This document shows, in pieces, positions 15,653-42,374 of a stretch of DNA of 64,000 bases. Position numbers and translations under genes: made by a program. Where the stretch lies: positions 62,001 to 126,000 of the forward strand of contig JAKVCC010000011.1 of the NCBI GenBank assembly GCA_022448265.1, written 5' to 3'. This stretch comes from Pirellulales bacterium (GTDB lineage: Bacteria; Planctomycetota; Planctomycetia; Pirellulales; Lacipirellulaceae). Numbering within the stretch: the first letter of the stretch is position 1; every line of letters begins with the position of its first letter. The notes beneath the pieces were generated by a model. It was not told the origin of the DNA. It saw nothing but the letters and a program-made list of their open reading frames with translations, and made no database searches.

Positions 15653-15671
15653 CAGGAAGACAATAACTCTC

Positions 15672-18321: not shown

Positions 18322-19550
18322 ATCGACCGCAAGTGGTTCTCGGTATCGTAGAGGACTGTTATGCATCTACGGGACTGCCAAGGGAAAACGTTTGGCAACT
18401 GGGTGGCCATCCCCTGATCGCCTTTGGCGTCGCCAGCGCCATGGCCGCCAAATCCATCGATCGGGTGATCGTATCTACCGCCAACAAGCGCGTGGCGGAG
18501 AGCGCCTGCGCCTACGGTGCCGAAGCGCCCTTTCTTTTGCCCGCTGAGCTGGCCACGAACACTACGCCCGACCTCTTGCGGTTTCAGCACATGCTCTCCT
18601 GGCTGCAGGATCATGAAGGCTACCAACCGTCGATTGTCGTCCAGATCCGGACTACCACCCCGTTTCGCCCCCGCGGATTTCTCGATTCTGCCATTGCCCT
18701 TTTGCAAGCCGACGCGAAGACCGATTCCGTCCTAGCCGTCGCCCATCCCAAACAGGCCCCTTCGGCAATGTGGACCCGGGACGAAAAGGATTACCTCCGC
18801 CCGCTCCTAGAAAGGGGACGCGCGGAGCCCGATAGCCAGCCTGGCCCGCTAGCCTTATGGCAATCGGGGCACGCAGACGTCGTTCGCACCAATACAATTT
18901 TAAAGAAAGGGTCGCTCACGGGTGACTATGTGAAGTCGGTGTTCGTGGATCCGTCCTTTGTTGTAAACATCGACCGGTCGGAGGACCTGCACTGCGCTGA
19001 AACCCTGCTCGGAACATGCGCCCTCAACATCGACCTGCCGGAGCGCTCGAACCCCCAGTCGGTACCACTACCCGCGCGTACCCGTTTGGTCGTCCTAGAT
19101 TTCGATGGAACCCTCACCGACGATCGCGTTTGGGTGGATTCCGAAGGCCGTGAGTCCGTAGCCTGCAGCCGTAGCGACGGGTTGGGCCTGGAGATGCTCC
19201 GCAAGGCCGGGATTGAGGCGTGCGTGCTTTCTAAAGAGGCAAACCCTGTCGTAGCCCGCCGATGCGAAAAACTGCGTATTGCTTGTACACAGGGAATCGA
19301 CGACAAGGTAGGGGCGCTGCGAGAAATCATGGCTAAGCGCGACATCGAGGCTCGGGAAGTCGTATATGTGGGTAACGACGTTATCGACATCGACTGCATG
19401 CGTCTGGTGGGGTTTTCATTTGCCCCGGCCGATGCGCACCCTAGCGTCAAACAACAAACTGACTGCATCCTGTCGCGCGCGGGCGGGAGAGGAGCTGTTC
19501 GCGAGGTTTGTGAAATACTGCTCGCCAACTTGCAATTGCAGTCAGAATAA
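18315..19550 (+). CDS. CMAS-like fusion: degenerate cytidylyltransferase domain plus KdsC-type HAD phosphatase
   Basis: A 411-residue protein with the order seen in animal CMP-sialate synthetase: nucleotidyltransferase fold (~1-235) followed by a KdsC-like HAD domain (~255-400). In the first half, the place of the ARGGSKGIPxKN signature reads DCYASTGLPREN (residues 14-25), so the key Arg and both Lys are lost, although the rest of the fold (HPLIAFGVASAMA, VSTANKRVAESA, QIRTTTPFRP) is recognisable. The second half has all HAD motifs: DFDGT at 262-266, Ser306-Lys307, Lys331 and GND at 353-355. It is therefore more likely a phosphatase, for example on an ulosonate 8- or 9-phosphate, with a structural or substrate-binding N-terminal domain. 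Last gene of the plus-strand operon. Confidence 0.82.
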   Translation: MVDRPQVVLGIVEDCYASTGLPRENVWQLGGHPLIAFGVASAMAAKSIDRVIVSTANKRVAESACAYGAEAPFLLPAELATNTTPDLLRFQHMLSWLQDHEGYQPSIVVQIRTTTPFRPRGFLDSAIALLQADAKTDSVLAVAHPKQAPSAMWTRDEKDYLRPLLERGRAEPDSQPGPLALWQSGHADVVRTNTILKKGSLTGDYVKSVFVDPSFVVNIDRSEDLHCAETLLGTCALNIDLPERSNPQSVPLPARTRLVVLDFDGTLTDDRVWVDSEGRESVACSRSDGLGLEMLRKAGIEACVLSKEANPVVARRCEKLRIACTQGIDDKVGALREIMAKRDIEAREVVYVGNDVIDIDCMRLVGFSFAPADAHPSVKQQTDCILSRAGGRGAVREVCEILLANLQLQSE

Positions 19551-22017: not shown

Positions 22018-22437
22018 AATCGCACAAAGGGGGCACAACCGGGTACAGCACGACCGTGCAGACAACGGCATTCGCGTCCGGTCACGGAATTCAACTGTAA
22101 ATCCCCGTCCAAAATTTGGAAATAGGACTTCCTCGCTTTTGTCAAAAGAATCCTTCCAATTCTTCTTGTCTCGGTGGGTGTCCGCTTTTTGCACACACGC
22201 ACGGTGCATGCCTAACGCTTGTCCCAAAATGACAAATCCCTAGATTGCCCGTGAACATCAGTTGCCATCCGGCAGCAGACAATTGGCGACTTTTTTGCAT
22301 GCGTTGCATCCGTCGATAAACACGTGCCCCATCCTCCCACCACGGTGCACAGGTTAAGGACTTGGTGCTATAATCGGCAACATTTAGCGGCAAGTGAAAT
22401 CTACCACGAAAGGCTCGGTGCAACGTTGAGAGCTTTA
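22018..22437. other. Divergent intergenic region, about 420 bp
   Basis: This separates the minus-strand glycosyltransferase-like gene from the plus-strand sulfatase. Both promoters should lie here. Frames running into it from either side (to 22227 and 22324) are low-quality extensions of the flanking genes. No RNA, repeat or clear promoter was recognised. Confidence 0.4.
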
Positions 22438-24039
22438 ATGTTGAAAGCAGCGATATTGAAAGACGCTCGATTAAGATTCGTACTGGCTTATAGCCTGGCA
22501 ATCGTTTGCGGACTGCCCCTGCGGGCAGTGCTTGCCAGCGAACAGGGACGGCCAAACATTCTCTTTATCTACAGCGACGACCACGCGTACCAGGCGATCA
22601 GCGCCTACGGATCAAACCGCAACAAAACACCCAACATTGATTCGCTCGCCAGAGATGGCATGCTCTTCGATCGTTGCCTAGTTACCAACTCAATTTGCGG
22701 CCCATGCCGCGCGGTAATTCTCACGGGCAAGTACTCCCATCTCAACGGTTTCACGCGTAACGACAATCGTTTCGACGGCACTCAACAAACGTTTCCCAAA
22801 CTGCTTCGCCAAGCCGGATACCAGACCGCCATGATCGGAAAATGGCATTTGGCATCCGATCCAACCGGCTTCGATTATTGGAAGGTATTGCCAGGGCAGG
22901 GGGCCTATTACAACCCGGACTTCAAAACCGCTGCGGGAACCGAGCGCCTTATGGGCTACTGCACGGACATCATCACCGACATTGGCCTCCAGTGGCTGCA
23001 GTCTGAGCGTGACCCCAAAAAACCTTTCATGATGATGCTGCAGCACAAAGCGCCGCACCGAGAGTGGGCCGCGGGTCCCACGCATCTGAATACGTATGAC
23101 GATGTCACGATGCCGGAACCCGAAACTCTTTTTGACGACTATCACGACCGCCCCTCGGTAATTCGTGATCAACAGATGACCATCGCTCGGAGCATGACAC
23201 AGGGCTATGACTTGAAGCTTTGGGACGAATCCAATCGCCACACGCCAGGGTTCAAGCGTTTTTTTGGCCGCTTCACGGATGAACAAAAACGAGCTTTCTT
23301 GGAGGCCTATGCCGAAAAGAATCGCGAATTCACTGAGGCGAATCTCGCAGGCAAAGACCTTATTAGCTGGAAGTACCAACGTTACGTCAAAGACTATCTG
23401 CGCTGCATTGCGTCGGTGGATGAGAACGTCGGACGGGTCTTGGACTACCTTAAGGAGTCGGGCTTGGGCAAGAACACGATCGTGATTTATTCGTCCGATC
23501 AGGGATTCTACTTGGGCGAGCACGGTTGGTTTGACAAACGCTGGATTTTTGAGCAATCCTTAAAAACACCTTTGCTGGTTCGCTGGCCGGGAGTTGTGGA
23601 GCCGGGCAGTCGCAACGATAGCGTAGTTTCCAATCTCGACTTTGCCGAAACATTCCTTGACATCGCGGGCGCGACAGTGCCTGCAGACATGCAAGGCCAT
23701 TCGCTGCTGCCACTAATCCAGGGGCACACCCCCAACAACTGGCGACAGACATTTTACTACCACTACTATGAAACTGGCGGGCACGGTGTCCCCGCGCATT
23801 TTGGCGTGGTCACCGACCGGCACAAATTGGTGCGGTATTACGAGACCCGAGCTAATCGCAAGCTGGTACCTATCAACCAGTGGGAATTAATCGACTACAA
23901 GTCCAACCCGGAAGAGACCGTTAATTTCCTGGGGGATCCAACTTACGCCGAAACCAAAATGGATCTCCGCCAAGAATTGAGACGACTGCAAGCACACTAT
24001 CAGGTGCCATCGATCTCCACGAATTTTCCCAATGAGTAA
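22438..24039 (+). CDS. Secreted sulfatase (formylglycine type)
   Basis: A 533-residue sulfatase from the ATG at 22438, chosen because a signal peptide follows at once ([22 protein letters not shown]). The mature part opens [21 protein letters not shown], supplying the metal aspartates. The modification site is CGPCR with Cys87 as the formylglycine residue, followed by [15 protein letters not shown] and [16 protein letters not shown] complete the active site. It would cleave sulfate esters from a glycan outside the cytoplasm. It lies 23 bp before the DUF6807/cytochrome fusion and is probably co-transcribed with it and the second sulfatase. The specific sulfated sugar is unknown. Confidence 0.92.
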
Positions 24040-24062
24040 CGGCTAAGCACAAAGGAATTCTT

Positions 24063-27000
24063 ATGCAAGGCAACGTTTCAAAAATGCGCATGCACAAGCT
24101 TACCGGTAACGCCCGTAGGCGATTTGGTACGTTGCTCCTCGCGGCATTTTCTGCAGTACCCGCCATAGCATCTGCTGCCACACCCACCACTGGGGCTGAG
24201 TCGGCTTCACTTCAGATTCAGTCCGATAAGGCTGTAGGCAGGTTGACTGTTTTTCGCGGTGACGATCCAGAGCCCATTTTGACCCAACACGCGCGGAAAG
24301 ATTTTCGTCCGTACCTGCATCCGATTGTGGCCCCAGACGGGCGGGGCGTGCTGACCGAAGCGAGCCCCGATCACCATCCCCATCAAACGGGACTCTACTG
24401 GGGATTCACCCGGGTCAATGGCCGCGACTACTTTCATCATCCACAGGGCGACCACTGGCGCCGCGTTTCTGCCACAGTTCTCAAGGCGGTAGCTCAGGGG
24501 GAGCATGATTCGGTGCAGTGGGAAACTGTCTACGATCTGTTGGACGAAGATGGCACGGCAATCTTGAGAGAATCCCAAGTCTGGACCATGCGCGAGGACC
24601 ATGGCACCTATGTCCTCGACCTCAAGTGGACCGGTCACGCCAAGACCCACATCACCATCGGCAAGGCCAATTATGGCGGACTGTTCTTGCGGATGCCATG
24701 GCATGACGGCGTAGAGGGTGCCGTCCGCAACAGCAATCGCCTGATGGGGCCGCAGGCCGAAGGTCAGCGGGCCGCGTGGGTCGATGTGGGCATGCGCGTG
24801 GAAGGACGCGACGATTTGGCCCATATCGCAATTTTCGACCACCCCAAAAATCCTGGTTTTCCGCTGCCGTGGCGCGTTGATGGCAAGATGGGAGTCGGGC
24901 CGGTACGGGCGCGGCTCGGCGACTGGACGATCGCCAAAAATGAGCGGGCGTCAATCCAACATCAGTTGGTGGTCTATACGGGCCAATATAATAAGAGGGC
25001 GCTCACCCAGAAATGGTCGAAGTACTCGGGGCAAAGCCTGGCATCAGTGAACTTTCTTTCTCCCGAAAAAGCTGTCGAAAACATGACGCTTGTCGAAGGA
25101 TTTGAGGTGGAAGCGTATGCGACCGAGCCCATGATCACCCAACCCATGGCCTTTTGCTGGGACGATTCTGGACGAATGTGGGTCGCGGAAAACCGCGACT
25201 ACGAAACGCGGGGCACGGGATTCTCAGGTTCCGGAGATAGCCGCATTCTGATTTTGGAAGATACCGACCGCGATGGCGTCGCGGACAGCCGAAAGGTGTT
25301 TCTGGAAGGGATTCCGTTTCCTGCCGCAATCGCCGTTGGTTTTGATGGACTATGGTTGGGGGCACCGCCCAATCTCTTGTTTGTTCCGGACCGCAACGGG
25401 GACGACCGGGCAGATACTGAAGACATCGAGGTTCGGCTAACGGGTTGGGGAATCCGAGATCGGCACGAAACCATCAACAGTTTTATGTGGGGCCCCGATG
25501 GCTGGCTGTACGGCTGCCAGGGATTTGCAACTGCGTCCCGGGTGAGCGAACCGGAAGACGAGGGCCATATTTACCGTCACGGCGAACCATTTCCCACAGA
25601 GAATGCATACGGAAGAAATGGGCGACAAGATGCGTGGCCCAATGTAAAGTTGGCCGGCGAGCCGGTCGACTTCAACGGAGGCGTATTTCGCTACCATCCG
25701 CTCAAGCGCCGCTTTGAAGTGGTCGCCCACGGCTTCAGCAACCCCTGGGGCCTCGACTACGACGCCAAGGGGCAGCTATTTATTACTGCCTGCGTGATAC
25801 CCCACCTGTGGCATGTCATCCCCGGCGGCATATATCATCGCCAGGGGGGCAACCATTTTAGTCCCTATGTCTATAGCGACATCACCACCATCGCTGATCA
25901 CCGGCATCATTCGGCCCACGGGGGGGCCCGCATTTACCAGTCGGATGCGTTTCCCGACAAGTACAAAAATCGGATCTTCATGGCCAACATTCACCAGCAT
26001 GCGGTACTCACCGACATCCTCGAGCCAAGTGGCTCAGGTTACATCGGTCGGCACGGCGACGATTTTTTATTGGCCAACGACAATCAATGGGTCGGTTTTA
26101 GCATCGAAATTGGACCGACTGGAGCGGTGTATGTGCTGGATTGGCACGACGCCAACATATGTGGTAGTGAGGTTATCCAAAAAGAGACTGGCCGCATCTA
26201 CCGCATGGCACCGACGGTCTCCCACGCGCAAGAATGGAAAGGTCGTTATGGCGATTTGCGTGAACAGCCCAACGCCGCACTGGTCAAACTACAGACCAGC
26301 GAAAGCGATTGGCACGCCCGCCGCGCGCGGCTGCTCTTGCAGCAGCGCGCAACGAGCGGCAACCTTGATTCAGCAACGAGCATCGCCCTCAAAACTCTGT
26401 TTCGCGCGGCGGCCAGCGCTGACCATCGTCTGCGCGCGCTCTGGACGTTGCACGTGACGGGCGGGGCCGACGCGGCGATGCTCCTCGATGCGCTGGATGA
26501 TCGCGACGAGCACATCCGAGGCTGGGCTATTCAACTGCTTTGCGAGGACCGTGCCGCGCCCGACGAGGCCCTGCAACGGTTTGTTGATCTCGCCCGCAAT
26601 GACACTTCGCCGGTAGTCAGACTTTATCTGGCGGCGGCACTACAGCGTGTGAAACCCGACACCCAGTGGGCAATCGCCGAAGAACTGGCACTGCACGCAG
26701 AAGACGCAGAAGACCACAACATTTCGAAGATGATCTGGTTCGGCATTGAGCCACTCGTAACGACCGACCTGGATCGATCACTGCGACTTGCCGGAAACGC
26801 GCAATTGCCGTTGCTCACACGGCACATTGCCAGGCGATTGACAGACTCCGAACAGCTTATAGAAGTTGTGGCGGCGGTCAGCGCATCACCGTCTGCTCGC
26901 AAGCAATTGCTACTGGGCATCCGTGACGGATTGGAAGGCCAATACGATGTTCGGGCGCCGGACAACTGGACTCCCGTGTACGATCAACTGCAAACAGACG

Positions 27001-27965
27001 GCGGCGAGCAAGCCGCACTGGCCCTGGAGTTAGCGCAGCAATTTGGGGACAACGCGGCCGCAGAAAAGCTATTGGCCTTACTCAAAAACGGGGATGCGCC
27101 TATCGACCAGCGCCGACGTGCATTGCAGGGACTTGCTGGCCGTAAGCGTCCCGAATTGAAAGCTGAACTTTTGGCGATGCTCGACGACGACGAGCTGCGC
27201 CGCAGCGCGGTTCAAGCAATGGCCGCCTACGACGAGCCCCAGATGGCTAACGCTCTGTTGAAACGATACGGGACATTGGCTACTGACGACAAGCTTGACG
27301 CCCTGCACACACTGGCCTCGCGGCGGAGTTATGGAGTGCGACTTACTCAAGCGATTGCTGACGGCCGCATTCCCAAGCGGGATGTGCCGGCCTATCTTGC
27401 CCGTGTCCTGCGGCGCGTGGTGGGGAATGCGTTTGTCGACGCATGGGGTCCAATTGACGCGATTTCAGCAGACAAAGAGGCCATGCTTCGCAGGTTCCGT
27501 GCGCTGCTAACTGACGAAGCACTGGCGAGCGCTGATACGACACGCGGCCGCACACTGTTTAGCCGAACTTGCATAGCATGCCACAAGCTATATGGCGATG
27601 GTGGGGCGATCGGCCCGGAACTTACCGGTGCGAATCGAAGTAATTTGGAATACCTCCTGGGCAACATCCTGACCCCCAGCGCAGTCATTCAAGACGCTTA
27701 CCGCATGCATATAGTCCTGACCGACGACGGCCAGATTTTCTCAGGCGTTCTCGTTAATGAAAACGAGCGGCAGCTCCAGCTGAGAGTTGTTGATCGAACG
27801 GAGCCTGTCGTGATTGCCAAGTCGCAAATTGAGTCACGCGAGATTGCGCCCGTGTCAATGATGCCCAACGGCTTGCTGGAAAACCTCACAGGCCAGGAAG
27901 TTTTAGACTTAATCGCTTACCTGCAAACTGTCCAGCAGGTGCCGCTGCCGAATGTAGTCGAGTAG
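24063..27965 (+). CDS. DUF6807 (PmoA-like) - PVC-type dehydrogenase - HEAT - cytochrome c fusion
   Basis: A 1300-residue secreted protein with AAAGGA 7 bases before its ATG. After a signal peptide (RFGTLLLAAFSAVPAIASA), residues ~45-325 form a DUF6807/PmoA-like domain (SPDHHPHQTGLYWGF, HHPQGDHW). Residues ~335-710 form a PVC-type beta-propeller dehydrogenase (VEGFEVEAYATEP, RMWVAENRDYE, ILEDTDRDG, INSFMWGPDGWLYG). Residues ~740-1120 are HEAT-like helices, and a cytochrome c domain closes it with CIACH at 1170-1174, GPELTG and the conserved tail (IVLTDDGQIFSGVL, MMPNGL). Such proteins are thought to oxidise sugars or alcohols and pass electrons to the haem; the substrate is unknown. Having DUF6807 fused ahead of the dehydrogenase is notable. 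Confidence 0.9.
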   Translation: MQGNVSKMRMHKLTGNARRRFGTLLLAAFSAVPAIASAATPTTGAESASLQIQSDKAVGRLTVFRGDDPEPILTQHARKDFRPYLHPIVAPDGRGVLTEASPDHHPHQTGLYWGFTRVNGRDYFHHPQGDHWRRVSATVLKAVAQGEHDSVQWETVYDLLDEDGTAILRESQVWTMREDHGTYVLDLKWTGHAKTHITIGKANYGGLFLRMPWHDGVEGAVRNSNRLMGPQAEGQRAAWVDVGMRVEGRDDLAHIAIFDHPKNPGFPLPWRVDGKMGVGPVRARLGDWTIAKNERASIQHQLVVYTGQYNKRALTQKWSKYSGQSLASVNFLSPEKAVENMTLVEGFEVEAYATEPMITQPMAFCWDDSGRMWVAENRDYETRGTGFSGSGDSRILILEDTDRDGVADSRKVFLEGIPFPAAIAVGFDGLWLGAPPNLLFVPDRNGDDRADTEDIEVRLTGWGIRDRHETINSFMWGPDGWLYGCQGFATASRVSEPEDEGHIYRHGEPFPTENAYGRNGRQDAWPNVKLAGEPVDFNGGVFRYHPLKRRFEVVAHGFSNPWGLDYDAKGQLFITACVIPHLWHVIPGGIYHRQGGNHFSPYVYSDITTIADHRHHSAHGGARIYQSDAFPDKYKNRIFMANIHQHAVLTDILEPSGSGYIGRHGDDFLLANDNQWVGFSIEIGPTGAVYVLDWHDANICGSEVIQKETGRIYRMAPTVSHAQEWKGRYGDLREQPNAALVKLQTSESDWHARRARLLLQQRATSGNLDSATSIALKTLFRAAASADHRLRALWTLHVTGGADAAMLLDALDDRDEHIRGWAIQLLCEDRAAPDEALQRFVDLARNDTSPVVRLYLAAALQRVKPDTQWAIAEELALHAEDAEDHNISKMIWFGIEPLVTTDLDRSLRLAGNAQLPLLTRHIARRLTDSEQLIEVVAAVSASPSARKQLLLGIRDGLEGQYDVRAPDNWTPVYDQLQTDGGEQAALALELAQQFGDNAAAEKLLALLKNGDAPIDQRRRALQGLAGRKRPELKAELLAMLDDDELRRSAVQAMAAYDEPQMANALLKRYGTLATDDKLDALHTLASRRSYGVRLTQAIADGRIPKRDVPAYLARVLRRVVGNAFVDAWGPIDAISADKEAMLRRFRALLTDEALASADTTRGRTLFSRTCIACHKLYGDGGAIGPELTGANRSNLEYLLGNILTPSAVIQDAYRMHIVLTDDGQIFSGVLVNENERQLQLRVVDRTEPVVIAKSQIESREIAPVSMMPNGLLENLTGQEVLDLIAYLQTVQQVPLPNVVE

Positions 27966-28042
27966 AAATTCTCGCTTGCTTGTGGCCGCCTGAACATTTC
28001 ACAGGCTACGCGGTCGTAACACAATATAGATCGGAGCTAATC

Positions 28043-29533
28043 ATGGAACGACGCGAGTTTATTACGTACGCCGGACTAGGCGCTTGCTCCTCTTTGGCAG
28101 CGGCCACCGGCCAAAGCAATGCGCAGCGCCAAAGCGGGCCGTCCAAACGACCTAATATTCTTTTTATCATGACCGACCAGCAGCATGCCGGCATGCTTAG
28201 CTGTGCGGGAAACAAAGACCTTAAGACCCCGGCGCTCGATCAATTGGCCGCTACGGGCATTCGGTTTGAAAAAGCGTACGTCCCCAATCCGGTCTGTTGT
28301 CCCTGCCGATTCAGCCTACAAACAGGTCTGATGCCTAGTCACATTGGGGCTAGTGACAATCCCTCTGGAGACGTAGCGCCTATTTCTGAGTCGGTTGCGG
28401 CTAATTCGTTAGGACCTCTCTTTCAGAAAGCCGGTTACGACTGCGCCTACGGTGGCAAGGTTCATGTGCCGATAGGCTTGTGGGATAAAGTCAAGGAGAA
28501 TTGCTGGGACTATCTGTGCAAGTACGGACGCGACGAGTTGGTCGACGCATGCTCGGATTATTTCGAACAACCTCGTGACAAGCCTTTCTTGTTGTTTGCG
28601 TCATTCGTCAATCCGCACGACGTTTGCTACATGGCGTACCTCAAGTATTCTAGCGACGACTTGATCAATGGCCGCTTTCAGATTTTCAACCAAACCCTCA
28701 AGGAAAATAATCTAGGCGCCAATTCTATTAAGAATGAGCAGGACCTGGACGATTTCGTAGCAAACCACTGCCCCAAGTTGCCCGACAACTACGACGTCCC
28801 CGAAAACGAGCCCGAGGCGATTACCACCAAGTACCTCGAGGCGCGCGATTTTCGGATGCACGTACGGCAGCACTGGGACGAAAAGATGTGGCGACTGCAT
28901 CGATGGATGTATGCCCGGCTGACCGAGAGGGTAGACAAGAATATTGGCAAGATCCTAGGGGCGCTCCAGCAGTCAGAAGCTGCCGACAATACGCTGATCG
29001 TCTTTACCAGCGATCACGGCGACATGGATGCGGCGCACCGGACAGAGCATAAGTCGATTCCCTACGACGAAGCGGTCCGGGTACCGTTTATTATGAGCTA
29101 CCCCGGCCGCATCCCCGCAGGGACGGTCAACCAACAACATTTCATTTCCAATGGCCTCGATTTACTGCCGACACTTTGTGATTACGGTCAGATTGCCGCG
29201 CCCTCCAGGTTGCCCGGTCGCAGCGTGCGCCCTCTGGCGGAGGGCCGTCCGGCCGACGGTTGGCGAGAAACCCTGGTATCCGAAAGCCAAAACGCCCGCA
29301 TGCTCTGCCATGGAGCGTACAAGTACACGATCTACGACGGCGGCAAGAACCGGGAGTGTCTGATAGACCAACAAAACGACCCCGGCGAGATGAAAAACAT
29401 TGCCAATGACCCGCGTTTTGCCCACCAGTTAAACCAAATGAGGAAGTTGCTCTGTGATTGGGTGGAGACGGTCGATGACAGAATCGGCAGGAAGTATGTC
29501 ATCCTGCCAGGCACTGCGGTGAGGTCCGCCTAA
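28043..29533 (+). CDS. Sulfatase with Tat-like signal
   Basis: A 496-residue sulfatase from the ATG at 28043, which has GGAG 8 bases upstream; a frame back to 27980 has no support. The N-terminus [20 protein letters not shown] resembles a Tat signal. The mature domain opens [21 protein letters not shown], and the formylglycine site is CCPCR with Cys85 as the predicted modified residue. [12 protein letters not shown] supplies further metal ligands. It is the third gene of a run: sulfatase, DUF6807-dehydrogenase-cytochrome, sulfatase. The two sulfatases differ clearly in sequence, suggesting two sulfate positions on one target glycan, though this is inference. Confidence 0.92.
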
Positions 29534-30031: not shown

Positions 30032-33000
30032 TCAGTTCGACGCCCCAGGCGCAGTATCCCCGTCGGCCGGCGCGGTGCGGAGCAAGGCGATCAGGTCAGC
30101 CAGTTCCTGCGGCTCTAGCGTCTTTTCGAGCCCTTCGGGCATGAGCGACAGGCTGGAATTCTGCAGGAATTCAATCTGGGCGCGAGCTAGTGTCTTGATG
30201 CTGCCGTCTTCCAGCTTGATCGTGACGCTGTTCGACGTTTCTGCGGTTAGCAGACCCGATACAATCATTCCAGACTCCAATTGACAATTGTAGCGCTGGT
30301 AACCCGGGTTGATCTCCGCATTCGGATCGAGAATGCTGCCCAGCAACTTCTCGGGCGGATGATTGACGACCGTCGCCAGATTGGGACCAATTTCCGCGCC
30401 TGCCGAACCACGCCGGTGGCAGGTGCCGCATTTCCCTTTGACATAGGCTGCTTTTCCCCGCTCTGGGTCCGCAGCCAATTCCAGGCAGCTTCGATACTCA
30501 GCGATTACTGCCGCACGCGTAACACTCCCTGTCGAGTCGAAAACGCTGGCAGCCCGCCCGGCAATGGCCTCCGACGGATGGCGCAGCAGGCGATCACGAC
30601 GCGCGGGGTCGATCATGCCGCTAGTGATACTACCGTTTTCGATCCGATTGAGCAGGTCTTCGGTCCAACGGTTGCGCGACAGCCAAAGATTGAGTGCCTG
30701 CTCGCGGAGTGCCGGGCTGAAGGATTCCCATGCCTCGCCTAGCACTTCGGGCACCTGGTCGGCACCACTGCGGTTTAGCGATTCTAAGACGGTCTTCTGT
30801 AGTTCGGGCTCTATCTGCGGTCGAAGCCACATCGACAGACTCTCGAACGCCGCGCTGCGATAGGCGGGTATCCTGCCCAAGAGCGCAGCGGCCGCTATGC
30901 GCTCACTCGAGGAGCGATCTTCATCCTCAGCAGTATGCTTGACCACTTCAAAGAGTTTTTCCGCGTCGGCTAGAACCGCGGTCATGGCTGGAACGACCGG
31001 CTCGGCGGCAAGCTGTTCCCAGGACGTTCCTGCTTGCTCAAGTACACTGATCAGGCTGTCGAAGTCTCGCATAGCCAAAGCCGGCCGCTTGGCCAAGGCA
31101 GCGGCAAATATCTGGGCAGTCGCCGCAACCTCTTTCGTCCCTAAAGCCAACCGCAGCAACGGTTCCCGATAAGTATCGACGACGGTTTGCTCAGCGCGCA
31201 AGATGGCGGGAGTTAGCGCAGAAGCATAAGGCAACGCAGAACTCATGACGGCCGCAACCAGCAGTGGCTCGGCGGCACCGCTGACCGCGATTTGTGCGAG
31301 CGCCCCGGCCGCCGCGTCGCTGGCTGGCCACTCGCCCAAGCTCAGGGCCAACTGGAGCCGCACCTTGGCATCGGGATCATTAGCCAACCGCACAGCGGCC
31401 GCGACAACTTTGGCATCGGTTCCCCAAGCCTCGGAGATGCGTAGCGCGTTTTCCTTGACCCCAGCGGTGGGGTCGGCCAGGGCTGTGCACAATAATTCAC
31501 TCGTGAGCCCTTCGGTGCAGTCGAGCGTACAGAGTGCCTGCACACGAGTCTGAGGCCGGGGATTCGAGCGGACAAGCTGTTCAAGTGGCGGGGTGGCGGC
31601 GGCATCTGCCTTCCACAGCAATAGTTGCTGCGCCTTGTCGCGCTGCCAATCGTTGGGCGAGTCGAGTGCGGCAACCAGACCTGCCGTGCCGACCTTGTCG
31701 AGCCGCACGGGTTTACGCGGCGCTGCCCCCTCGGCCACCACGCGGTAGATTCTGCCGCGATACTCTCCCAGGCGGTAATGGGGCAGCAGCTCGGCTCTGC
31801 CTTCGGCAGGCAGCCAGGCCGGATGCTCAATCATGTAGCGATACATATCGGCGATCCATAGTGCGCCGTCCGGCCCCGTACGAGACATCACGGGTCGGCA
31901 CCAGCGATCTTCGCTGGCAAAGAAGTCGCGATCCTCTTCCCCCGGCGCGCGATGCGCAACATAGCTCACCCCCACATCCTTGATCACATTGTGCTGCACT
32001 AGGTTGTGGAAGGGTTCGCAGGTAAATGCATGCTGCGGGGGGCCATCGACAAACAACAGATTGTCGTTATAAATCATGCCGCCGCAGGCGGAGGTAAAAT
32101 GTCCTGCCTCCTTAAAAGAGTGAAACCGTTTTTGCAGTGAACTTGCCGGATAGATTCGCGCTAGCCAGCTGTCTGGGCTAATGACTCTCTGGGTAGGCGG
32201 GGGCATAGGCACGTAAGGATTCCGCGATGAATAGCGATCCGCCAGTACATAGTGCCACAGAGGCATGACGTTCTGCGTACCAAACCAATGTCCCCAAGCG
32301 TCGCGATTGCGGCCAAACTGGGTTGGCCCCGATTCCGGCTCCACCGCACCCGAATCGGGATGAAAACGAAAGTCGCGGCTACCCAGCTCAAGTTTGACTC
32401 CCGAGCGCGTCGATTCGATGCGTGTCCCGACACCATGGTCCGGATGATGCCCGCCGCCGGCGCAGTAGACCCACCCGTCGAGCCCCCAACGTAAACCGTT
32501 GACCCGCAACTGCTGATTGCCTTCAGAAAAACCTTGAATCAGCACCTCGGTGCTATCGGCCTTGCCATCGCCGTCGGTGTCGCGCAAAAACAAAATCTCC
32601 GGGGCGGCGGTTACCAGCACACCGTCGCGCCAGGTGAGAATGCCGTTCGGAAAGTTCAAATCCGAAGCGAACAGGCGACTTGTCTCGAAATGGCCATCGC
32701 GGTCGCGGTCCTCAAGTACGCGAATCCGTCCTCCACCCTTGCCCTTTCCGTCAGTTCCGAGCGGATAATCGGCCATTTCGACCACCCACAAGCGGCCGCT
32801 GGGGTCCCAGTCGAAGGCTACCGGATCGAGAACCTGCGGTTCGCAGGCGGCCAGCTCCAACCGATAGCCAGCGGGCACATGGTTTTTTTTCAGTGCTACG
32901 ATCGGAGAAACTGGGTGACTCTCCGGCGGGGCAGCGGCCACACGGTTAGCAACCGGTGGCGTGGCGGGCTTGCCCGCGGCAAGGCCAGAGGCGGCATGCA

Positions 33001-35776
33001 AGGTCTGCGCCTCGTCACCCGTGAGGGCCCGATCGAATAGCGCTATGTGCGCCATCATCCCTAGTAGGGGCGCAAAGCCGTCGTTGCGCGCACCAAAAAA
33101 ATAGTCGCTTGGGTTGGGGGCCGTGGCCGCAACGTCAGCGTCAATCTCGGGCTCCACCGCGCCATTAAGAAATACCCGCACCCGCTTTCCGTCATGCACC
33201 ATCACCACATGGTTCCAGCTCCGCCATCCCAGCCGCGTCGTTCCAGCAGTCGATTGCTTCTTGGTGTTTCCGTTAAAGACCCAGAGATTGTTGCCGATTC
33301 CCAGGCTGTCACCACTGGAGGCGTCTCCGTCACGCCCTCGCGAGAAACAATAGGTCATACCAGGGTCCGCCTCGTTACCCTTCTCATTACAAATCCAGAA
33401 CGAAGCGCTAAAAGGCGACCCGGGTTTCTCGGCGCTGCGGCGAATGTGCCCTCCGGCGAAAGTGGCAAAAAACCGTTCACTATATTTCACTTTCGCCTTG
33501 GTCGTCATATGCTCAGGCGCCGTGGCGAGCGACTGGTACTCCACGGGAGCGAGCTGAGCGATGGCGTCCGCGTAATTTGCCGCAAACTTAGGTGGCGCGG
33601 TAGGCGGCAGGACCGTTTGCCCAAGGCGGCTCAATGCTTCCTGGTGGGCAACATGATGCTCGCTGACACCCGATAGTTGCCAAAGTTCGTTAATCTGGGT
33701 GGGTGTTAGGAGATGATCAAATATGGCGATTTCATCCAATTTGCCTTGCAGGCCGGTGCCAAAAACAAACTCGCTGCCAGCGGACGTCGCCGCGGCATCG
33801 GCGGCAATCTGGGGAGTTGGTCGACCGTCGACAAACACGCTTAGCTGGTCGCCATCGCGCTGGAGCACCACAAAGTGCCAGTCGTCTGCTCGCATACTCG
33901 CCTGCGACGCCACCTCGCCAATCAACAGTTGCACCTGATGGTCGTCATCCTGACGGCAGACCAGCGACTCACCTCGGGGTCCCGCCATGAGCGTACCGCT
34001 TCGCTCACTCGCGCCCGACGCTTCGCCGAGCCAAACCCAGAGCGCAACCGAATACTGGCCGCCGAGCTGGCCTACGCTTGCGCGCAGCTCGCCCCCAGCC
34101 AGATGCACCGCGCGATTGATTTGGCGAGGACCAGAAAACGCAGAGGGAGTCAGCATCTCGCGACTCCCAATCCCCGTGCCGCTGCCGGGGCCCGGCAAAT
34201 ACCAAGCGAAACCTGGGCTAAGCTCGGCCGGGGCAGCGCCGCCTACAGCATTCCGCGCGATACGGCCCTTGATGTCGTTGAGCCGCCACCAGGATCGAGG
34301 CTGGGCCTGACGAATAGCCTTCGAGTACGGTCCATCCTCGTCAGCAGGAATTCGGGGCGGCTTGCCCGTAACCTCGCCCAAGGCCTCGACCAAGGTCGTC
34401 ACTATCTTGGGCTCAGCGTTGACTTCCAGGCCGGCGGAGCGGGCGGGCCAAGTCGAGTAACCGCCGAGAGCGTGCTGCTCGGGAGGCGGAATGTAGCCTT
34501 CGGCTCCGTTGGCCAATCCTAAATTAAAGTGCACCTGCCCGGGAGTCTGGGCCCGCAACTTCAATCCCGTCACCGCGTAGACCTCGTTGGGCAGCGTGCA
34601 AATGGTCAAATCCCCGATGCGAATCACTTGTAGCTTGAGTTCCGTCGATTGACGCGCATCGAGAATCACCGCTTCGTTGGCATACACTTCGGTGAGATCC
34701 TTCGGCACCTCGTTTTCGATTTTTTCTGCAATGGGCCGCGCCCAAGCGAGTCGCTCCTTGTTGGGAACGCGGTACTTCAGCTTCAAACGCTTTTCAACCA
34801 TCGTCAAGGTAGCCGAGTCTTGATACGTAATCCTGCGAAGCGCTCTGTGGGCGTAACGGGCCACGGCGGCAGCGTAGGTATCGCGGTCGATCTTTTCGGC
34901 GGGCTGACCATAGTCTGGCCACTGCAAGTCGCCGCTGGTGCCCTGCGACATCGCGCACACAAATGGCCCGTTGCCTTCTCCTGGCAAACCCCAAAGATTG
35001 GCCACGTGCCGGCAAAAATCACCGTAGTAGTCTGCAGAAACCGGGCCCCCGCCAAAGTAGTGCTGCGAGTAGTTGGCCAGCACGGCCAGCGGCTTGCCGT
35101 CAAGTGTTTGCGCCGCCAGCACCGCCAGAGCCGGATCAACCGCACCTGACGGTCCGATCACATCGCGGCTGAGGTAGCCCGGATGCATATTGGCAATCCC
35201 ACTCACGTCGCCAAATGGATCTTGCACCTTCCCCTCAAGATTACGAATCCAGCGACGGTTATGCGTGTGCTCCCAATCGTCGATGACCGCCCACCCCACG
35301 CGGGCCGGCTGGAGATTGGCGACCGCTTTGGCGATCCCGTCGGCGATCAAACCAGGCAAGCGTGCTACATAGATTTTGTCTTGGCGCGTGCCTAAACCGG
35401 CCTTCGCAGACGGCGCTGCGTGTGTATGCGTGGCGGAGACGGTCATTCGATCGGTGGGGATACCTGTTCTCTGGCTCGCCAACTGTTTGGCCTGGTCGAT
35501 AAGCTGCGCTTCCACCATGCAGGAATCGACAACGGCCAGCACGATCTTGGTTTGACCGTCGTCAAAAGCGAAACAGCGTACAAACAGCGGATCGACCACC
35601 TGACTGGCCCGGGCTTCCAGGAAATATCCGGCAATAATGACCGGAAAATTACTCGGCGTGATATCGATGGCCGCCGCGCCGGCCCGAAATTCGTATGCGG
35701 CCGCGCGGGTGGGGAACGCGAGGCAAACAGTCAGAAAAACTAAAAATAAGCTAATTGCGGTTCGCTGCAATTGCAT
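30032..35776 (-). CDS. Giant fusion: neutral ceramidase-like - two LamG - PVC-type dehydrogenase - HEAT - cytochrome c
   Basis: A 1914-residue secreted protein starting at 35776, where GGAAGG precedes the ATG and a signal peptide follows (ISLFLVFLTVCLAFPTRAAA). Residues ~28-440 resemble neutral/alkaline ceramidase (RAGAAAIDITPSN, VSATHTHAAPSA, SQGTSGDLQWP). Residues ~480-715 and ~740-935 are two LamG/concanavalin-like binding domains (each ending DEIAIFDHLLT or AHIALFDRALTGDEA). Residues ~960-1350 are a PVC-type dehydrogenase (AGYRLELAACEPQ, LWVVEMADYP), then HEAT-like helices, and a cytochrome c domain with CGTCH at 1783-1787. It would join amidase-type cleavage, glycan binding and oxidation in one extracytoplasmic chain. 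Substrate unknown. No frameshift was seen. Confidence 0.88.
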   Translation of the reverse strand: MQLQRTAISLFLVFLTVCLAFPTRAAAYEFRAGAAAIDITPSNFPVIIAGYFLEARASQVVDPLFVRCFAFDDGQTKIVLAVVDSCMVEAQLIDQAKQLASQRTGIPTDRMTVSATHTHAAPSAKAGLGTRQDKIYVARLPGLIADGIAKAVANLQPARVGWAVIDDWEHTHNRRWIRNLEGKVQDPFGDVSGIANMHPGYLSRDVIGPSGAVDPALAVLAAQTLDGKPLAVLANYSQHYFGGGPVSADYYGDFCRHVANLWGLPGEGNGPFVCAMSQGTSGDLQWPDYGQPAEKIDRDTYAAAVARYAHRALRRITYQDSATLTMVEKRLKLKYRVPNKERLAWARPIAEKIENEVPKDLTEVYANEAVILDARQSTELKLQVIRIGDLTICTLPNEVYAVTGLKLRAQTPGQVHFNLGLANGAEGYIPPPEQHALGGYSTWPARSAGLEVNAEPKIVTTLVEALGEVTGKPPRIPADEDGPYSKAIRQAQPRSWWRLNDIKGRIARNAVGGAAPAELSPGFAWYLPGPGSGTGIGSREMLTPSAFSGPRQINRAVHLAGGELRASVGQLGGQYSVALWVWLGEASGASERSGTLMAGPRGESLVCRQDDDHQVQLLIGEVASQASMRADDWHFVVLQRDGDQLSVFVDGRPTPQIAADAAATSAGSEFVFGTGLQGKLDEIAIFDHLLTPTQINELWQLSGVSEHHVAHQEALSRLGQTVLPPTAPPKFAANYADAIAQLAPVEYQSLATAPEHMTTKAKVKYSERFFATFAGGHIRRSAEKPGSPFSASFWICNEKGNEADPGMTYCFSRGRDGDASSGDSLGIGNNLWVFNGNTKKQSTAGTTRLGWRSWNHVVMVHDGKRVRVFLNGAVEPEIDADVAATAPNPSDYFFGARNDGFAPLLGMMAHIALFDRALTGDEAQTLHAASGLAAGKPATPPVANRVAAAPPESHPVSPIVALKKNHVPAGYRLELAACEPQVLDPVAFDWDPSGRLWVVEMADYPLGTDGKGKGGGRIRVLEDRDRDGHFETSRLFASDLNFPNGILTWRDGVLVTAAPEILFLRDTDGDGKADSTEVLIQGFSEGNQQLRVNGLRWGLDGWVYCAGGGHHPDHGVGTRIESTRSGVKLELGSRDFRFHPDSGAVEPESGPTQFGRNRDAWGHWFGTQNVMPLWHYVLADRYSSRNPYVPMPPPTQRVISPDSWLARIYPASSLQKRFHSFKEAGHFTSACGGMIYNDNLLFVDGPPQHAFTCEPFHNLVQHNVIKDVGVSYVAHRAPGEEDRDFFASEDRWCRPVMSRTGPDGALWIADMYRYMIEHPAWLPAEGRAELLPHYRLGEYRGRIYRVVAEGAAPRKPVRLDKVGTAGLVAALDSPNDWQRDKAQQLLLWKADAAATPPLEQLVRSNPRPQTRVQALCTLDCTEGLTSELLCTALADPTAGVKENALRISEAWGTDAKVVAAAVRLANDPDAKVRLQLALSLGEWPASDAAAGALAQIAVSGAAEPLLVAAVMSSALPYASALTPAILRAEQTVVDTYREPLLRLALGTKEVAATAQIFAAALAKRPALAMRDFDSLISVLEQAGTSWEQLAAEPVVPAMTAVLADAEKLFEVVKHTAEDEDRSSSERIAAAALLGRIPAYRSAAFESLSMWLRPQIEPELQKTVLESLNRSGADQVPEVLGEAWESFSPALREQALNLWLSRNRWTEDLLNRIENGSITSGMIDPARRDRLLRHPSEAIAGRAASVFDSTGSVTRAAVIAEYRSCLELAADPERGKAAYVKGKCGTCHRRGSAGAEIGPNLATVVNHPPEKLLGSILDPNAEINPGYQRYNCQLESGMIVSGLLTAETSNSVTIKLEDGSIKTLARAQIEFLQNSSLSLMPEGLEKTLEPQELADLIALLRTAPADGDTAPGASN

Positions 35777-37796: not shown

Positions 37797-40700
37797 TCAC
37801 GGCCCTTCCACGGTAACCGCCATTACCACCGGTGCGGTAAAGTCGCCTTCCAGCAATTCTATGTCGGTAATCAGATCCTCACGCTTGGGACGCACCACGA
37901 GATAACGGACTTGCCGCCCATCTAGATCAAAAGCATGCTCCGAACCAGGCACGTCATTCCGGCTAATATAGTCGGCAAAATGAATGCCGTTTCGCAAATC
38001 ATGATCTTCCTGAGTTCGGTCGGCATAGTGCAGTCGAACAGTCAACGAAACACTCTCGTCCTTGTACACCGGATATCCCCAGCCGCTGACACCGCTAAGC
38101 ATATGAATGGCGCGAGCCGGTCCGTTCCAGGAGATCCGAACCGACTTGGGCATCTCCCGGGGAATCGGGTGCGGACCGTGCAGCAAGATCACGTTGGATA
38201 CGGTGCCTTCTTCGGGATCGGTCAGGTGAAACGGAATTCCGCCAAACGTCTTAGGGCCCCAATCGGGAAAGACCAAACGTTCGGTCACAGACTCTTTCGC
38301 GAGGAACATGCCCCGATCGCTGGCAATGGTGGCAACACTACTTAAGTCGAGGGGCAAAAACTTGCCGCGTCGGGTTAGGAACTCAAGCAAATCGGTAATC
38401 TCGCGTGGCTTGACTTGTTTCTCAAAACCATCGGGCATCAGCGACTTGGGCGACGCCACCAACTGTTCGATATCTGCGCGCAAGATCACCTTCCGCTTGC
38501 CTTCCGCGTCGATCAACTCCACAGCCGTTTTCGATTCCGAGGCCAACATGCCACTGGCGACCAAGCCATCGAGCGTCACTATCGTGTAAACACGATAGTT
38601 TCCTTCCACACTGCGACTGGGATCGATCAGGTGCATCAGGAGCTCCGACTTGGGATGCACGGCCATACCCGTAAGATTGGGACCGACATGATTGCCTTCA
38701 CCGCCGTGAATGTGGCACTTAGCGCATTGTTGTTTGAAAACCAGCTGTCCCGCGTCTGGATCACCCACCTGCTGAGCTAGCGGCATTAGCTCATCGAGCA
38801 CCTTTTGGCGATCCGGATCCGGCAGCGCTCCACCGGCGGCCAGTAGGGCCTGCGCGCGCTCCTGAAGCGGCTTGTCCGGGTGGTCGGCAAGCGCCCGCTT
38901 CTGATCGATTGAGAGTTCCACGAGTTGTACAGCGCCGCGGTCCACCGCGTCGAGAAGCGCTTGGGTCGATTCGGCGCGGCTTAACAGAACCGACAGGGCC
39001 GTCTTGCGGGACCGCGGCATTAATTCTGAAAATCGGCTGATAAGGTGCGGGCCAAATCCCGGCGCTTGACTCGCGCGGGTCGCGCGCACAATCCCTTCAG
39101 CAAGATTGGGAGGCGTCTGCGGCGTGATGCGGTCAAGCACCTCCGTTGCCGTTTCGATGCGGTTAGGATGAAATTCAACCAATTGGTGGGCCGCGGCGAC
39201 GCGGTCTTCGACCAACAGGTCGGCGTCATCGAGTCGGCCATACAGCGACTCAGTTACGCCTTGTGCAAACCGGTCAAACCGATCGCTTCCCCAACTGCCG
39301 AGTAGTTTGATCAGCATTGCCTGGCCATTGAGTGACAATCGAGACAGTAGTCGCTCCAGGTCTGCTTCAGCACTAGGACCCAGTGCCGCCGCCTTACCGA
39401 CCGGCCACCCGCGGTTTAAGCCACCGACAATCGCATTAGCGACAACCGGCTCTGCGTTGGCCAATCCAGCGAGCAGACCACCCAACGAGTCGACGGCGCC
39501 GCGACGTGCGTAATGTTCGGCCACGATTCCGCTAATCTCAACAACCTTTGGAATACTAGCCACCGAGCTATCCGCCCCACAAACTGCGTCCAGAAAATCA
39601 TCGCAATGTGCGGCCGCTGCGCTGGTCGCCGCGTCAGGTATCCAGCGATCTTCGCTGTTAATCGGACGCGTTAGAGCTGCTAACATCTTGTCGCCGACGT
39701 CAGGAACCCGGGGCATGTCGGCCAGCGCCAGCAGGGCCGCCAGGCGAACCTGAGGCGACAAATCGATTAGAAGATTGGCGTCTAGGAGCGCAGCGGCTGA
39801 TGCGGATGTTGGCGGCAGTACGGCAACAGCCGTCCGCCGCACTCCGGCAGAGCTATGCTTGAGGGCAGACCAGGCGACGGCTACCAAAGGGGAGTCTTCT
39901 AGCGATCCTAGGCCATGCAGTGTCCAAAGTGCATGAATCGCCCCCACGTTCAAACCAATCTCGTCGGTGGATCCGTCGCGGACCAGTTCAACGAGTGGCT
40001 TAGTAATATCGGCTTTGCCCCGTTCGACCAACAAGCGCTGCGCATGCCGTCGCCACAACAGGTTTGGGTGCGCAAGCGCCCTGACAAGTTGGCGGGAACT
40101 AGCATCCGCTAAGGTCGTGGAAACGGAGGACACACCTGCTTTAGACACCCCGTCGTTGCCACCATAGACTACGCGATAGATGCGGGCGTGTTTCTTGTCA
40201 CGCAAATCAGAGACGTAGGCGGAGCCTTTGCCCGTCTTGAAACCTTCAGGTGTTGGATTGTGTTGGACGATGTAATTGTACCAGTCGATCATCCACATGT
40301 GGCCGTCGGGCCCAACCTCCGACATGATGGGCGCGGTCCACTCATCGTCGCTAGCCACGAGATTGAATGGGCTCGTCGCCGAGAAATTGCTGCCCTCGGG
40401 CTTGAGCAAAAACGTACCAATCAGATGACCCGTTGGTGCGTTGACAAAAGCCGTGCGGTTCCAATACTCCGGTGGGTAGGTACGGGCTGTATACAAGGCG
40501 TGGCCGGCCGCCGCGGTATAGCCTCCGTGAACGTCGACTTGTCGCACCTTATCGGTGACCGGTTTGAACTTGTAATTGTCTGCGATTGACCACAACACGA
40601 GTGATGGTGTCCAACCCTGCACCCGTTCGTAGTAACGATTCGCAATCGCCATGTATGTGCTTGGATTGCCGTTCGCTGTGGATCCAAACAGGATACCTTC

Positions 40701-42188
40701 TTCACTGAGGCCGACCCCCCAAGAGTTATTATTGTTGCTCCGCAAGAACTCCAGCTCCTTGACTTGCACCTCGCCATCCACCCGATCGACCTGAAAGCGA
40801 TAGAACCCCTGAGAAAACGAATGTTCGTCGCCAGCAACAGAGCCCTTGAAGCCCGAATAACCGACGTTTCCATAAAACCAATTGTCGTGACCATAGTTCA
40901 AGTTGCTTGGTCCGGAGTGGGTGTCGTGGATACCCCAACCGGTGAACAAGACTTTTCTTACATCAGCCTGGTCGTCGCCATCGGTGTCTTCAAAAAACAA
41001 GGTGTGCGGTGCCTGGTGCACAATCACGCCGCCGTGTGAAAAAGCGATGCTCGTCGGAATACTCAATTTGTCGGCAAATACGGTAGACCGATCGGCCTGC
41101 CCATCCCCGTTTGCATCCTCAAGAATCCGAATCCTGTCGTTACCTAAACCCTCGGGTTGCATGTCGTTGGGATAGTCAATCGTTTCGGCGACCCAGAGTC
41201 GCCCGCGCTCATCCCACGCCATGCATATCGGCTTGCCCACGATTTCGGGTTCGGAAGCGAACAATTCCACGCGAAAACCTTCCGGGACAATCATGTGCTT
41301 AAGCGACTCCTCAGCGGAAAGCGGCTTGGGCATCGTGGAGAAGTCCTTACCCGCGACGCCCCAATTCTCACCGGGGGCATAGTTGGGAATCTTGGTCGCA
41401 ACCTCAATCATCTCAAAGGGCGCGACATCAGTACGCGCGGCGGTCATCTCCGGAACGGGAAACGGACGATCCCGCATGTAAGCAGGCGCTTCGTTTGGGT
41501 CGCCGCCGGCGGCCCACCGAATCCCCCGTTCGACTAGGTTGTGAAACCCCTCGTTGCTCCAGGTACGATGGTCGTGCCCCCAGGCCGTGTAAAACACTCG
41601 CCCCTTGCCATGGGTGCGGGTCCACGTCCACGGTTCCCGCCCTTCGACATCGACCCGATACTCGAGCACCTCGCGGTCCTGCTCATTGTGTTTGTGATGC
41701 ACATAGGTCTCGTCCCAGCTTTCAAAGCCTCCAAATCCATCCATGATCGGATGATCGGCACGGGCGGTTGTCGCGCGAAACACTCCAGCGCCATGTCGCT
41801 GAAACTGGGCGCCCATCAGCGCAATGACCGGTTCAGAATTTTGGAAGCAAAACGTGGCACAATGGAGCGGCACGAATCCAGCTCCCGCGGCGACGTAGTC
41901 CAGTAGCGCTTTTTCTTCTGCGGGGTTGATCGTATCGATATTGGCATAGAGCAGCAGCGCATCAAAGCGATTGAGGTTCTCGGGGTTCAAGTCGGTGACG
42001 CTCTCTGTGTAGACGAGCTGAATTCCGCGCTTAGAGAGCGCTGGTTTTAGAAGCTGAAGTCGCTGACGCGGGCGATGCGGACCGTTGTCACCTAAAAACA
42101 GAACCTTCAGTTCCTTGGCAACAGCAGCAGGCTGGGGAGAGTGCATGTTTGCAAGCACAAACACGAGTGCAACAATGAGGCATTTCAT
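37797..42188 (-). CDS. ThuA - PVC-type dehydrogenase - HEAT - cytochrome c fusion
   Basis: About 1463 residues from the ATG at 42188, which directly precedes a signal peptide (CLIVALVFVLANMHSPQPAAVA); a TTG at 42242 is less likely. Residues ~25-245 are a ThuA-like domain (KVLFLGDNGPHRPRQRL, FVPLHCATFCF, VFYTAWGHDHRTW). Residues ~295-680 are a PVC-type propeller dehydrogenase (EGFRVELFASEPEIV, RLWVAETIDYPND, LNYGHDNWFYGNVGYSG), followed by HEAT-like helices. A cytochrome c domain has CAKCH at 1155-1159. The last ~180 residues (KTFGGIPFHLTDPEEG) form a beta-rich NPCBM/CBM-like extension. ThuA domains are linked to trehalose and other sugar use; together this suggests an extracytoplasmic sugar oxidase. 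Confidence 0.9.
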   Translation of the reverse strand: MKCLIVALVFVLANMHSPQPAAVAKELKVLFLGDNGPHRPRQRLQLLKPALSKRGIQLVYTESVTDLNPENLNRFDALLLYANIDTINPAEEKALLDYVAAGAGFVPLHCATFCFQNSEPVIALMGAQFQRHGAGVFRATTARADHPIMDGFGGFESWDETYVHHKHNEQDREVLEYRVDVEGREPWTWTRTHGKGRVFYTAWGHDHRTWSNEGFHNLVERGIRWAAGGDPNEAPAYMRDRPFPVPEMTAARTDVAPFEMIEVATKIPNYAPGENWGVAGKDFSTMPKPLSAEESLKHMIVPEGFRVELFASEPEIVGKPICMAWDERGRLWVAETIDYPNDMQPEGLGNDRIRILEDANGDGQADRSTVFADKLSIPTSIAFSHGGVIVHQAPHTLFFEDTDGDDQADVRKVLFTGWGIHDTHSGPSNLNYGHDNWFYGNVGYSGFKGSVAGDEHSFSQGFYRFQVDRVDGEVQVKELEFLRSNNNNSWGVGLSEEGILFGSTANGNPSTYMAIANRYYERVQGWTPSLVLWSIADNYKFKPVTDKVRQVDVHGGYTAAAGHALYTARTYPPEYWNRTAFVNAPTGHLIGTFLLKPEGSNFSATSPFNLVASDDEWTAPIMSEVGPDGHMWMIDWYNYIVQHNPTPEGFKTGKGSAYVSDLRDKKHARIYRVVYGGNDGVSKAGVSSVSTTLADASSRQLVRALAHPNLLWRRHAQRLLVERGKADITKPLVELVRDGSTDEIGLNVGAIHALWTLHGLGSLEDSPLVAVAWSALKHSSAGVRRTAVAVLPPTSASAAALLDANLLIDLSPQVRLAALLALADMPRVPDVGDKMLAALTRPINSEDRWIPDAATSAAAAHCDDFLDAVCGADSSVASIPKVVEISGIVAEHYARRGAVDSLGGLLAGLANAEPVVANAIVGGLNRGWPVGKAAALGPSAEADLERLLSRLSLNGQAMLIKLLGSWGSDRFDRFAQGVTESLYGRLDDADLLVEDRVAAAHQLVEFHPNRIETATEVLDRITPQTPPNLAEGIVRATRASQAPGFGPHLISRFSELMPRSRKTALSVLLSRAESTQALLDAVDRGAVQLVELSIDQKRALADHPDKPLQERAQALLAAGGALPDPDRQKVLDELMPLAQQVGDPDAGQLVFKQQCAKCHIHGGEGNHVGPNLTGMAVHPKSELLMHLIDPSRSVEGNYRVYTIVTLDGLVASGMLASESKTAVELIDAEGKRKVILRADIEQLVASPKSLMPDGFEKQVKPREITDLLEFLTRRGKFLPLDLSSVATIASDRGMFLAKESVTERLVFPDWGPKTFGGIPFHLTDPEEGTVSNVILLHGPHPIPREMPKSVRISWNGPARAIHMLSGVSGWGYPVYKDESVSLTVRLHYADRTQEDHDLRNGIHFADYISRNDVPGSEHAFDLDGRQVRYLVVRPKREDLITDIELLEGDFTAPVVMAVTVEGP

Positions 42189-42374
42189 ACTGAAACCCTT
42201 GTAAAATTTCGTCGTAGAGTTTCCCAGACAGTTGGAACGCAACTTCTTGCTACTCCGCTTGGTGCCGTCATGCGACTGGAGGCGACTGTGCTGTCTGCGG
42301 ACTTTTCTTTATGCCGAAGCTGAGCGAAGGCATAGACAGGACTACAGAAAACTCCTGAAGAAGCCTGTTTGCAA

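Follow-up and report, generated by a model that had tools for sequence, protein, structure and literature searches.

The closest described systems to the protein presented here are the neutral ceramidases, the PQQ sugar dehydrogenases, the Kuenenia dihaem cytochrome Kustd1711, and the PVC-type haem-binding CxxCH proteins. In neutral ceramidase, the GDVSPN hexapeptide is crucial for activity (PMC5874051), and in the human enzyme His196, Arg257, Tyr579, and Tyr591 are critical, with Ser354 holding Arg257 in position (PMC6952831). The haems of Kustd1711 are His/Met-ligated, with potentials of about +350 mV (PMC11791136). The family pfam13385 has been treated as a carbohydrate-binding module and is found near sulfatases and planctomycete cytochromes, and nothing is known of what planctomycete-type cytochrome genes do (PMC5615132). 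A literature search on the fusion described below, or on any member of its family, found no study.

The window, i.e., the whole 64,000-nucleotide stretch of DNA analysed, contains a minus-strand open reading frame from 35776 to 30032 that encodes 1914 amino acids with zero internal stops. A GGAAGG-like ribosome site is located immediately 5' of the ATG at 35776, and initiation at an alternative in-frame TTG (35830) would lengthen the protein by 18 amino acids. The protein combines, in this order, a signal peptide, a ceramidase-like domain, two LamG domains, a DUF7133/TIGR02604 propeller, HEAT repeats, and a TIGR02603 haem domain:

35776, minus strand: ATG start, with the stop codon at 30032-30034
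35693..35776, minus strand: predicted Sec signal peptide, residues 1-28, MQLQRTAISLFLVFLTVCLAFPTRAAAY
34355..35692, minus strand: neutral-ceramidase-like zinc hydrolase domain, residues 29-474 (PF04734, profile matches, model)
33632..34327, minus strand: LamG/concanavalin-like domain 1, residues ~484-715 (second PF13385 stretch, PF02210 at 621-673, model strands)
32972..33574, minus strand: LamG domain 2, residues ~735-935 (PF13385 at 785-922, model)
31733..32902, minus strand: DUF7133/TIGR02604 six-blade propeller, residues 959-1348 (HMMs, model)
30497..31699, minus strand: HEAT-type helical repeats, residues ~1360-1760 (PF13646, all-helical model, alphaRep matches)
30074..30472, minus strand: TIGR02603 c-type haem domain, residues 1769-1901 (HMM, Kustd1711 match)

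The signal peptide was called by inspection of the sequence and of a model helix at residues 3-18, and the AlphaFold2 models had mean pLDDT values of 86.4 (residues 1-950) and 88.7 (residues 943-1914). An earlier note on this DNA had described one uninterrupted frame with a ceramidase-like domain, two LamG-like domains, a propeller, helical repeats, and a CGTCH haem site, and the reading frame, the HMM matches, and the models confirmed this layout.

A scan of species genomes with the ceramidase half returned 511 related places, and the best 80 of these 511 were kept. Among the collected loci, at least 57 were single-frame, full-length ceramidase-propeller-haem fusions, the window copy (L007) included, and in further loci the fusion parts were interrupted by contig ends. 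Judged by spacing, 39 of the 57 fusions have two LamG domains, 17 have a single one, and the remaining fusion has none. Most carriers were Planctomycetota or Verrucomicrobiota records, and one was a Hydrogenedentota MAG. They include isolates, among them Brevifollis gellanilyticus (L056) and Verrucomicrobium sp. (L095, L105), as well as the single-contig assemblies G029 and G106; Prosthecobacter is a further cultured carrier. Since the domain order is shared with 56 other full-length fusions and the frame extends over 1914 codons, the arrangement is not due to chance. An assembly artefact joining two genes, which the earlier note had raised as a danger to its reading, was rejected because isolates and single-contig genomes are among those 56. 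In a 195-genome Planctomycetota spread, 29 genomes had a closely matching ceramidase domain (E up to 1e-40), in eight of them inside a frame longer than 1600 amino acids, and the distribution of the fusion in this phylum is patchy but real. Some MAG contigs with the fusion or the ceramidase half aboard (L101, L031, L047, L064, L093, L089, and L098) are named Klebsiella pneumoniae, Akkermansia muciniphila, or Kuenenia, and these names look like mislabels.

The N-terminal domain matched Ceramidase_alk (PF04734) in the HMM scan with 36.7 bits against a cut-off of 32.1, the best local match covering residues 30-126, and profile searches matched it to the P. aeruginosa (2zws, 3.4e-20) and human (4wgk, 4.8e-17) neutral ceramidases. 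Structural comparison of the model gave a Z of 32.5 to 2zws, with 395 residues aligned at an rmsd of 3.4, and a Z of 31.3 to human ASAH2 (4wgk). As the match to 2zws spans model residues 26-474, the whole ceramidase domain is there, beyond the 97-residue Pfam match, and the fold proposed in the earlier note is strongly supported. Residue correspondences were counted off the profile alignments to the P. aeruginosa enzyme (PaCD) and the human one, where the human numbering is reproduced by a constant offset of 98; the zinc-ligand positions mapped onto the domain are those that we take to be the ligands in the PaCD and human structures:

35420..35428, minus strand: H117-T-H119; H117 is a zinc ligand (His97 in PaCD, His194 in human) and H119 corresponds to His99/His196
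35255..35257, minus strand: R174, corresponding to Arg160 of PaCD and Arg257 of human, the substrate/catalytic Arg
35060..35062, minus strand: H239, zinc ligand (His204/His303)
34907..34942, minus strand: GTSGDLQWPDYG, residues 279-290, at the position of the ceramidase hexapeptide GDVSPN
34583..34585, minus strand: E398, zinc ligand (Glu411/Glu540)
34493..34495, minus strand: Y428, zinc ligand (Tyr448/Tyr579)
34457..34459, minus strand: Y440, corresponding to human Tyr591

The four zinc ligands H117, H239, E398, and Y428, along with H119, R174, and Y440, were invariant in 43/43 sequences. The loss of ligands that the earlier note had named as fatal to its proposal did not occur, and a dead zinc site was ruled out, every ligand being invariant. 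Together, the invariant ligands and catalytic set suggest that the N-terminal domain is likely a working zinc hydrolase. The GDVSPN hexapeptide with Ser354 is absent, and is replaced here by GTSGDLQWPDYG. The Ser354 position is occupied by Q285 in this protein and by Met in 38 of the 43 sequences, and the region reads GTSGD(L/Q)MWMDYG in most relatives, the position after (L/Q) also being given as (M/Q). The idea that Ser354 is the nucleophile, so that its loss kills the enzyme, was dropped, as this residue positions Arg257 (PMC6952831). The Pfam scan of the protein found no family of the ceramidase C-terminal Ig-like type, and the NCBI equivalog NF041649 scored 21.4 bits, below its cut-off of 1200.

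Both LamG-like domains were detected by the Laminin_G_3 model (PF13385) as two stretches in the HMM scan (1.2e-24). The nearest folds to LamG 2 were domain 4 of AbnA, which binds arabinan (Z 20), and sialidase lectin domains/CBM40 (Z 16-17). LamG domains can bind proteins as well as sugars. These results bear on the substrate, for which the earlier note had proposed a (glyco)lipid. Ceramide is an unproven candidate, put forward from the fold and the catalytic set. A true ceramidase or lipid amidase at the N-terminus, whose released head group the propeller would oxidise, fits that fold and the full zinc and catalytic set, and many PF04734 relatives occur in the source genome and phylum; nevertheless, we regard it as very doubtful, because the hexapeptide crucial for ceramidase activity (PMC5874051) is replaced, the model counterpart is limited to PaCD residues 1-491, the adjoining modules resemble glycan binders, and the partners of the propeller-haem part in other fusions are sugar enzymes. 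With no GDVSPN and no Ig-like domain, and with LamG 2 resembling the binding domain of an arabinanase and the CBM40 domains of sialidases, the lipid part of the proposal found no support beyond the fold.

At the other end of the protein, the helical repeats were borne out by an all-helical model, with a HEAT_2 (PF13646) match at 1427-1503 that scored 21.1 bits, under its cut-off of 27.7. HEAT repeats are typical docking scaffolds. The haem domain matched TIGR02603 (5.3e-35, 120.3 bits against a cut-off of 68.15) and, in a profile match, Kustd1711 (7zs0, 1.2e-13), and the CGTCH site lies within it:

30416..30430, minus strand: CGTCH haem attachment motif, residues 1783-1787, with C, C, and H invariant in 44/44
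30140..30142, minus strand: M1879, predicted distal haem ligand, corresponding to Kustd1711 Met292 by alignment and invariant in 44/44

By analogy with Kustd1711, we infer that the haem of this protein may have a comparable potential.

The propeller was recognised by DUF7133 at residues 959-1348 (2.8e-139) and TIGR02604 (1.4e-79, 268.2 bits against a cut-off of 122.2). Its best structural matches were the AA12 protein 6i1q and the PQQ sugar dehydrogenase 3a9g (Z 26.1), and other propeller families, such as DFPase and lactonase, were about 4 lower (Z ~22). AA12 enzymes can likewise carry a cytochrome. A sequence match to PF07995 (GSDH) was not found at E up to 1 in the Pfam scan. When aligned by MAFFT with the GSDHs of the phylum, the catalytic His fell at or beside Gln1089, Arg-Asn became Thr-Gln1153, and the Lys was lost; this mapping is tentative and of low confidence, since the residues located are those that we take to be the catalytic and PQQ-contact residues of sGDH, and hhalign, with narrow profiles, did not align the propeller and GSDH families. 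In the MAFFT alignment, these positions remain His (or Asn) and Asn in the ordinary TIGR02604 paralogues of the source genome, and the Gln signature, Gln1089/(T,S)Gln1153, was present in 87/94 propellers of the wider subfamily. The invariant polar residues of the propeller include R1137, D1290, D1310, and R1342, and Q1089, Q1153, E1254, and H1257 are also kept within the fusion subfamily; from this conservation, they could be an active-site cluster. Cysteines 1105, 1231, 1253, and 1293, conserved alongside E1254 and H1257, mark the fusion lineage, all four being present in 59/94 propellers, and the pattern of losses hints that Cys1231 and Cys1253 may pair.

The gene pqqC was detected in 3/59 genomes searched, the source genome included, and in none of the 30 other fusion-bearing genomes tested. 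In the source genome, an XoxF-like PQQ alcohol dehydrogenase and a binding protein lie in a row with PqqB-, PqqC-, and PqqE-like genes (L177, G000:C3:163000-176000), and this locus also encodes a dihaem cytochrome built like Kustd1711. Support for the propeller from PQQ biosynthesis was rejected, because the source pqqC belongs to this XoxF-like cluster and the 30 other carriers have none. PQQ scavenging by carriers that have no pqqC is possible. The earlier note had called the propeller a dehydrogenase; the fold stood, and the enzymatic name reflects the fold and is unproven, as is any oxidation by this domain, given the apparently replaced PQQ contacts and the 0/30 carriers with pqqC. Annotating such propellers as dehydrogenases is therefore unsafe. 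These same two observations, and the docking character of HEAT repeats, favour a propeller that serves as a binding or docking platform, with the haem relaying electrons on behalf of a different enzyme and catalysis left to the zinc hydrolase alone. We consider this somewhat unlikely, since the invariant R1137, D1290, D1310, and R1342 and the subfamily residues Q1089, Q1153, E1254, and H1257 could make up an active site.

The link between the two halves was also observed outside the single-frame fusions. In L028 and L034, each half has its own gene, one directly after the other, and the product of the second also starts with an apparent signal peptide. In L137-L140 the order is reversed: the ceramidase gene comes after a propeller-HEAT-haem gene, whose propeller belongs to a different branch. 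A FastTree analysis of 94 propellers placed the fusions in one main group plus the separate L144, L024, and L020/L026, and Fitch parsimony on this tree counted eight changes between the fused and unfused labels, a count that is approximate because some loci scored as unfused end ~500 amino acids before the propeller. Several of the unfused loci that were checked have FG-GAP repeats ahead of the propeller. As the same two functions have been joined repeatedly, a functional tie is argued. The earlier note had placed amide cleavage and oxidation on one protein, and this coupling remains reasonable in view of the fusion, the split genes, and the adjacency. Among the loci compared, no general conserved operon partner was found; DUF1501-like and SASA-like neighbours, named by eye from their sequences, occurred in five to six loci each.

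Two sulfatases and a DUF6807-DUF7133 fusion adjoin the gene within 22324-29533, and the window contains three DUF7133-haem fusions, each with a partner of its own (DUF6807, ceramidase, or ThuA), and two of these fusions flank the protein described here:

24063-27965, plus strand: DUF6807-DUF7133-haem fusion
37797-42242, minus strand: ThuA + DUF7133 + haem fusion

These flanking genes display module swapping on one chassis inside 18 kb. Elsewhere in the source genome, the chassis is joined to ThuA (L179), and a 1668-residue protein (L178:1546-6549, plus strand) has, besides DUF7133 and HEAT, GDSL hydrolase, PA14, and cytochrome c domains and a copper domain of the plastocyanin type. In G029, a 1739-residue frame (L141:3289-8505, plus strand) contains a 3-keto-disaccharide hydrolase (PF06439, 83 bits), a ceramidase-like domain, DUF7133, and haem. 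The ThuA and 3-keto link to sugars is one of association, and comes partly from the known 3-keto-sugar pathways. By comparison of these genes, we read DUF7133-HEAT-haem as a probable redox chassis on which hydrolase modules for sugars can be exchanged. The window also includes, at 13959-19547 on the plus strand, genes for NeuB, an SDR-like protein, and two cytidylyltransferases, of which one carries a HAD domain; this is a sialic-acid-type sugar locus.

Some of these arrangements would fit a zinc domain that had changed its chemistry, to become a lactonase or an O-deacetylase, or to act on what the propeller has already oxidised, with hydrolysis coming second: the chassis is fused to a GDSL acylhydrolase in L178, a 3-keto-disaccharide hydrolase stands beside the ceramidase domain in L141, and the propeller gene is ahead of the ceramidase gene in L137-L140. 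The retained catalytic set is of the amidase type, however, and this explanation seems to us improbable.

The reading that we prefer, with confidence slightly short of the halfway mark, is that the protein is secreted and works in two steps on modified sugars, with a zinc amidase/esterase directed at glycans and, coupled to it, a haem-linked oxidoreductase acting on sugar. The sugar side of it follows from the ThuA and 3-keto-disaccharide-hydrolase fusions on the same chassis and from the carbohydrate-binding-like LamG 2. The LamG domains would hold a glycan or glycoconjugate, and the zinc domain would take off an N-acyl (or O-acyl) group by means of a zinc-activated water, as in other zinc amidases. 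The propeller could then oxidise the sugar so exposed, with a 3-keto form as one possible product, and the electrons would pass to the His/Met haem and from there to an acceptor in the periplasm. For this, the propeller would have to do without the usual PQQ contacts, using a different cofactor or transferring electrons directly to the haem. A stronger version is quite unlikely: the propeller would be a haem-coupled oxidoreductase that needs no PQQ and has a new Gln/Cys/His active site, and on the same chain the zinc amidase would first deacylate an N-acylated glycan, which the propeller would oxidise next; if true, it would mean oxidative, glycosidase-free glycan breakdown on an interchangeable DUF7133-HEAT-haem chassis. 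PVC bacteria have many giant haem proteins, and the zinc half here is a recognisable, intact, and assayable active site, whose substrate would point to those of other DUF7133-haem proteins.

Collectively, the protein is a real, conserved, secreted bifunctional candidate built from known parts. It shares with neutral ceramidase (2zws, 4wgk) the N-terminal fold, the zinc ligands, and the His/Arg/Tyr set, but it differs in being 16-18% identical, in having neither GDVSPN nor the Ig-like C-terminal domain, and in joining this domain to LamG domains and a haem propeller. The six-blade fold is common to the PQQ sugar dehydrogenases (AA12 6i1q and 6jt5; 3a9g, 2g8s; sGDH), whereas the aligned PQQ-contact residues are, by the tentative mapping, replaced, and 30 carriers have no pqqC. 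The C-terminal half of Kustd1711 is the same domain as the one found here, including the insertion between CxxCH and Met; unlike this protein, Kustd1711 is a stand-alone two-haem electron carrier with neither hydrolase nor propeller (PMC11791136). The PVC-type haem-binding CxxCH proteins have the same propeller, HEAT, and haem domains, with TIGR02604 and TIGR02603 far over their cut-offs, and the protein described here is set apart from them by its Gln1089/(T,S)Gln1153/conserved-cysteine signature and by its extra zinc-hydrolase and LamG half.
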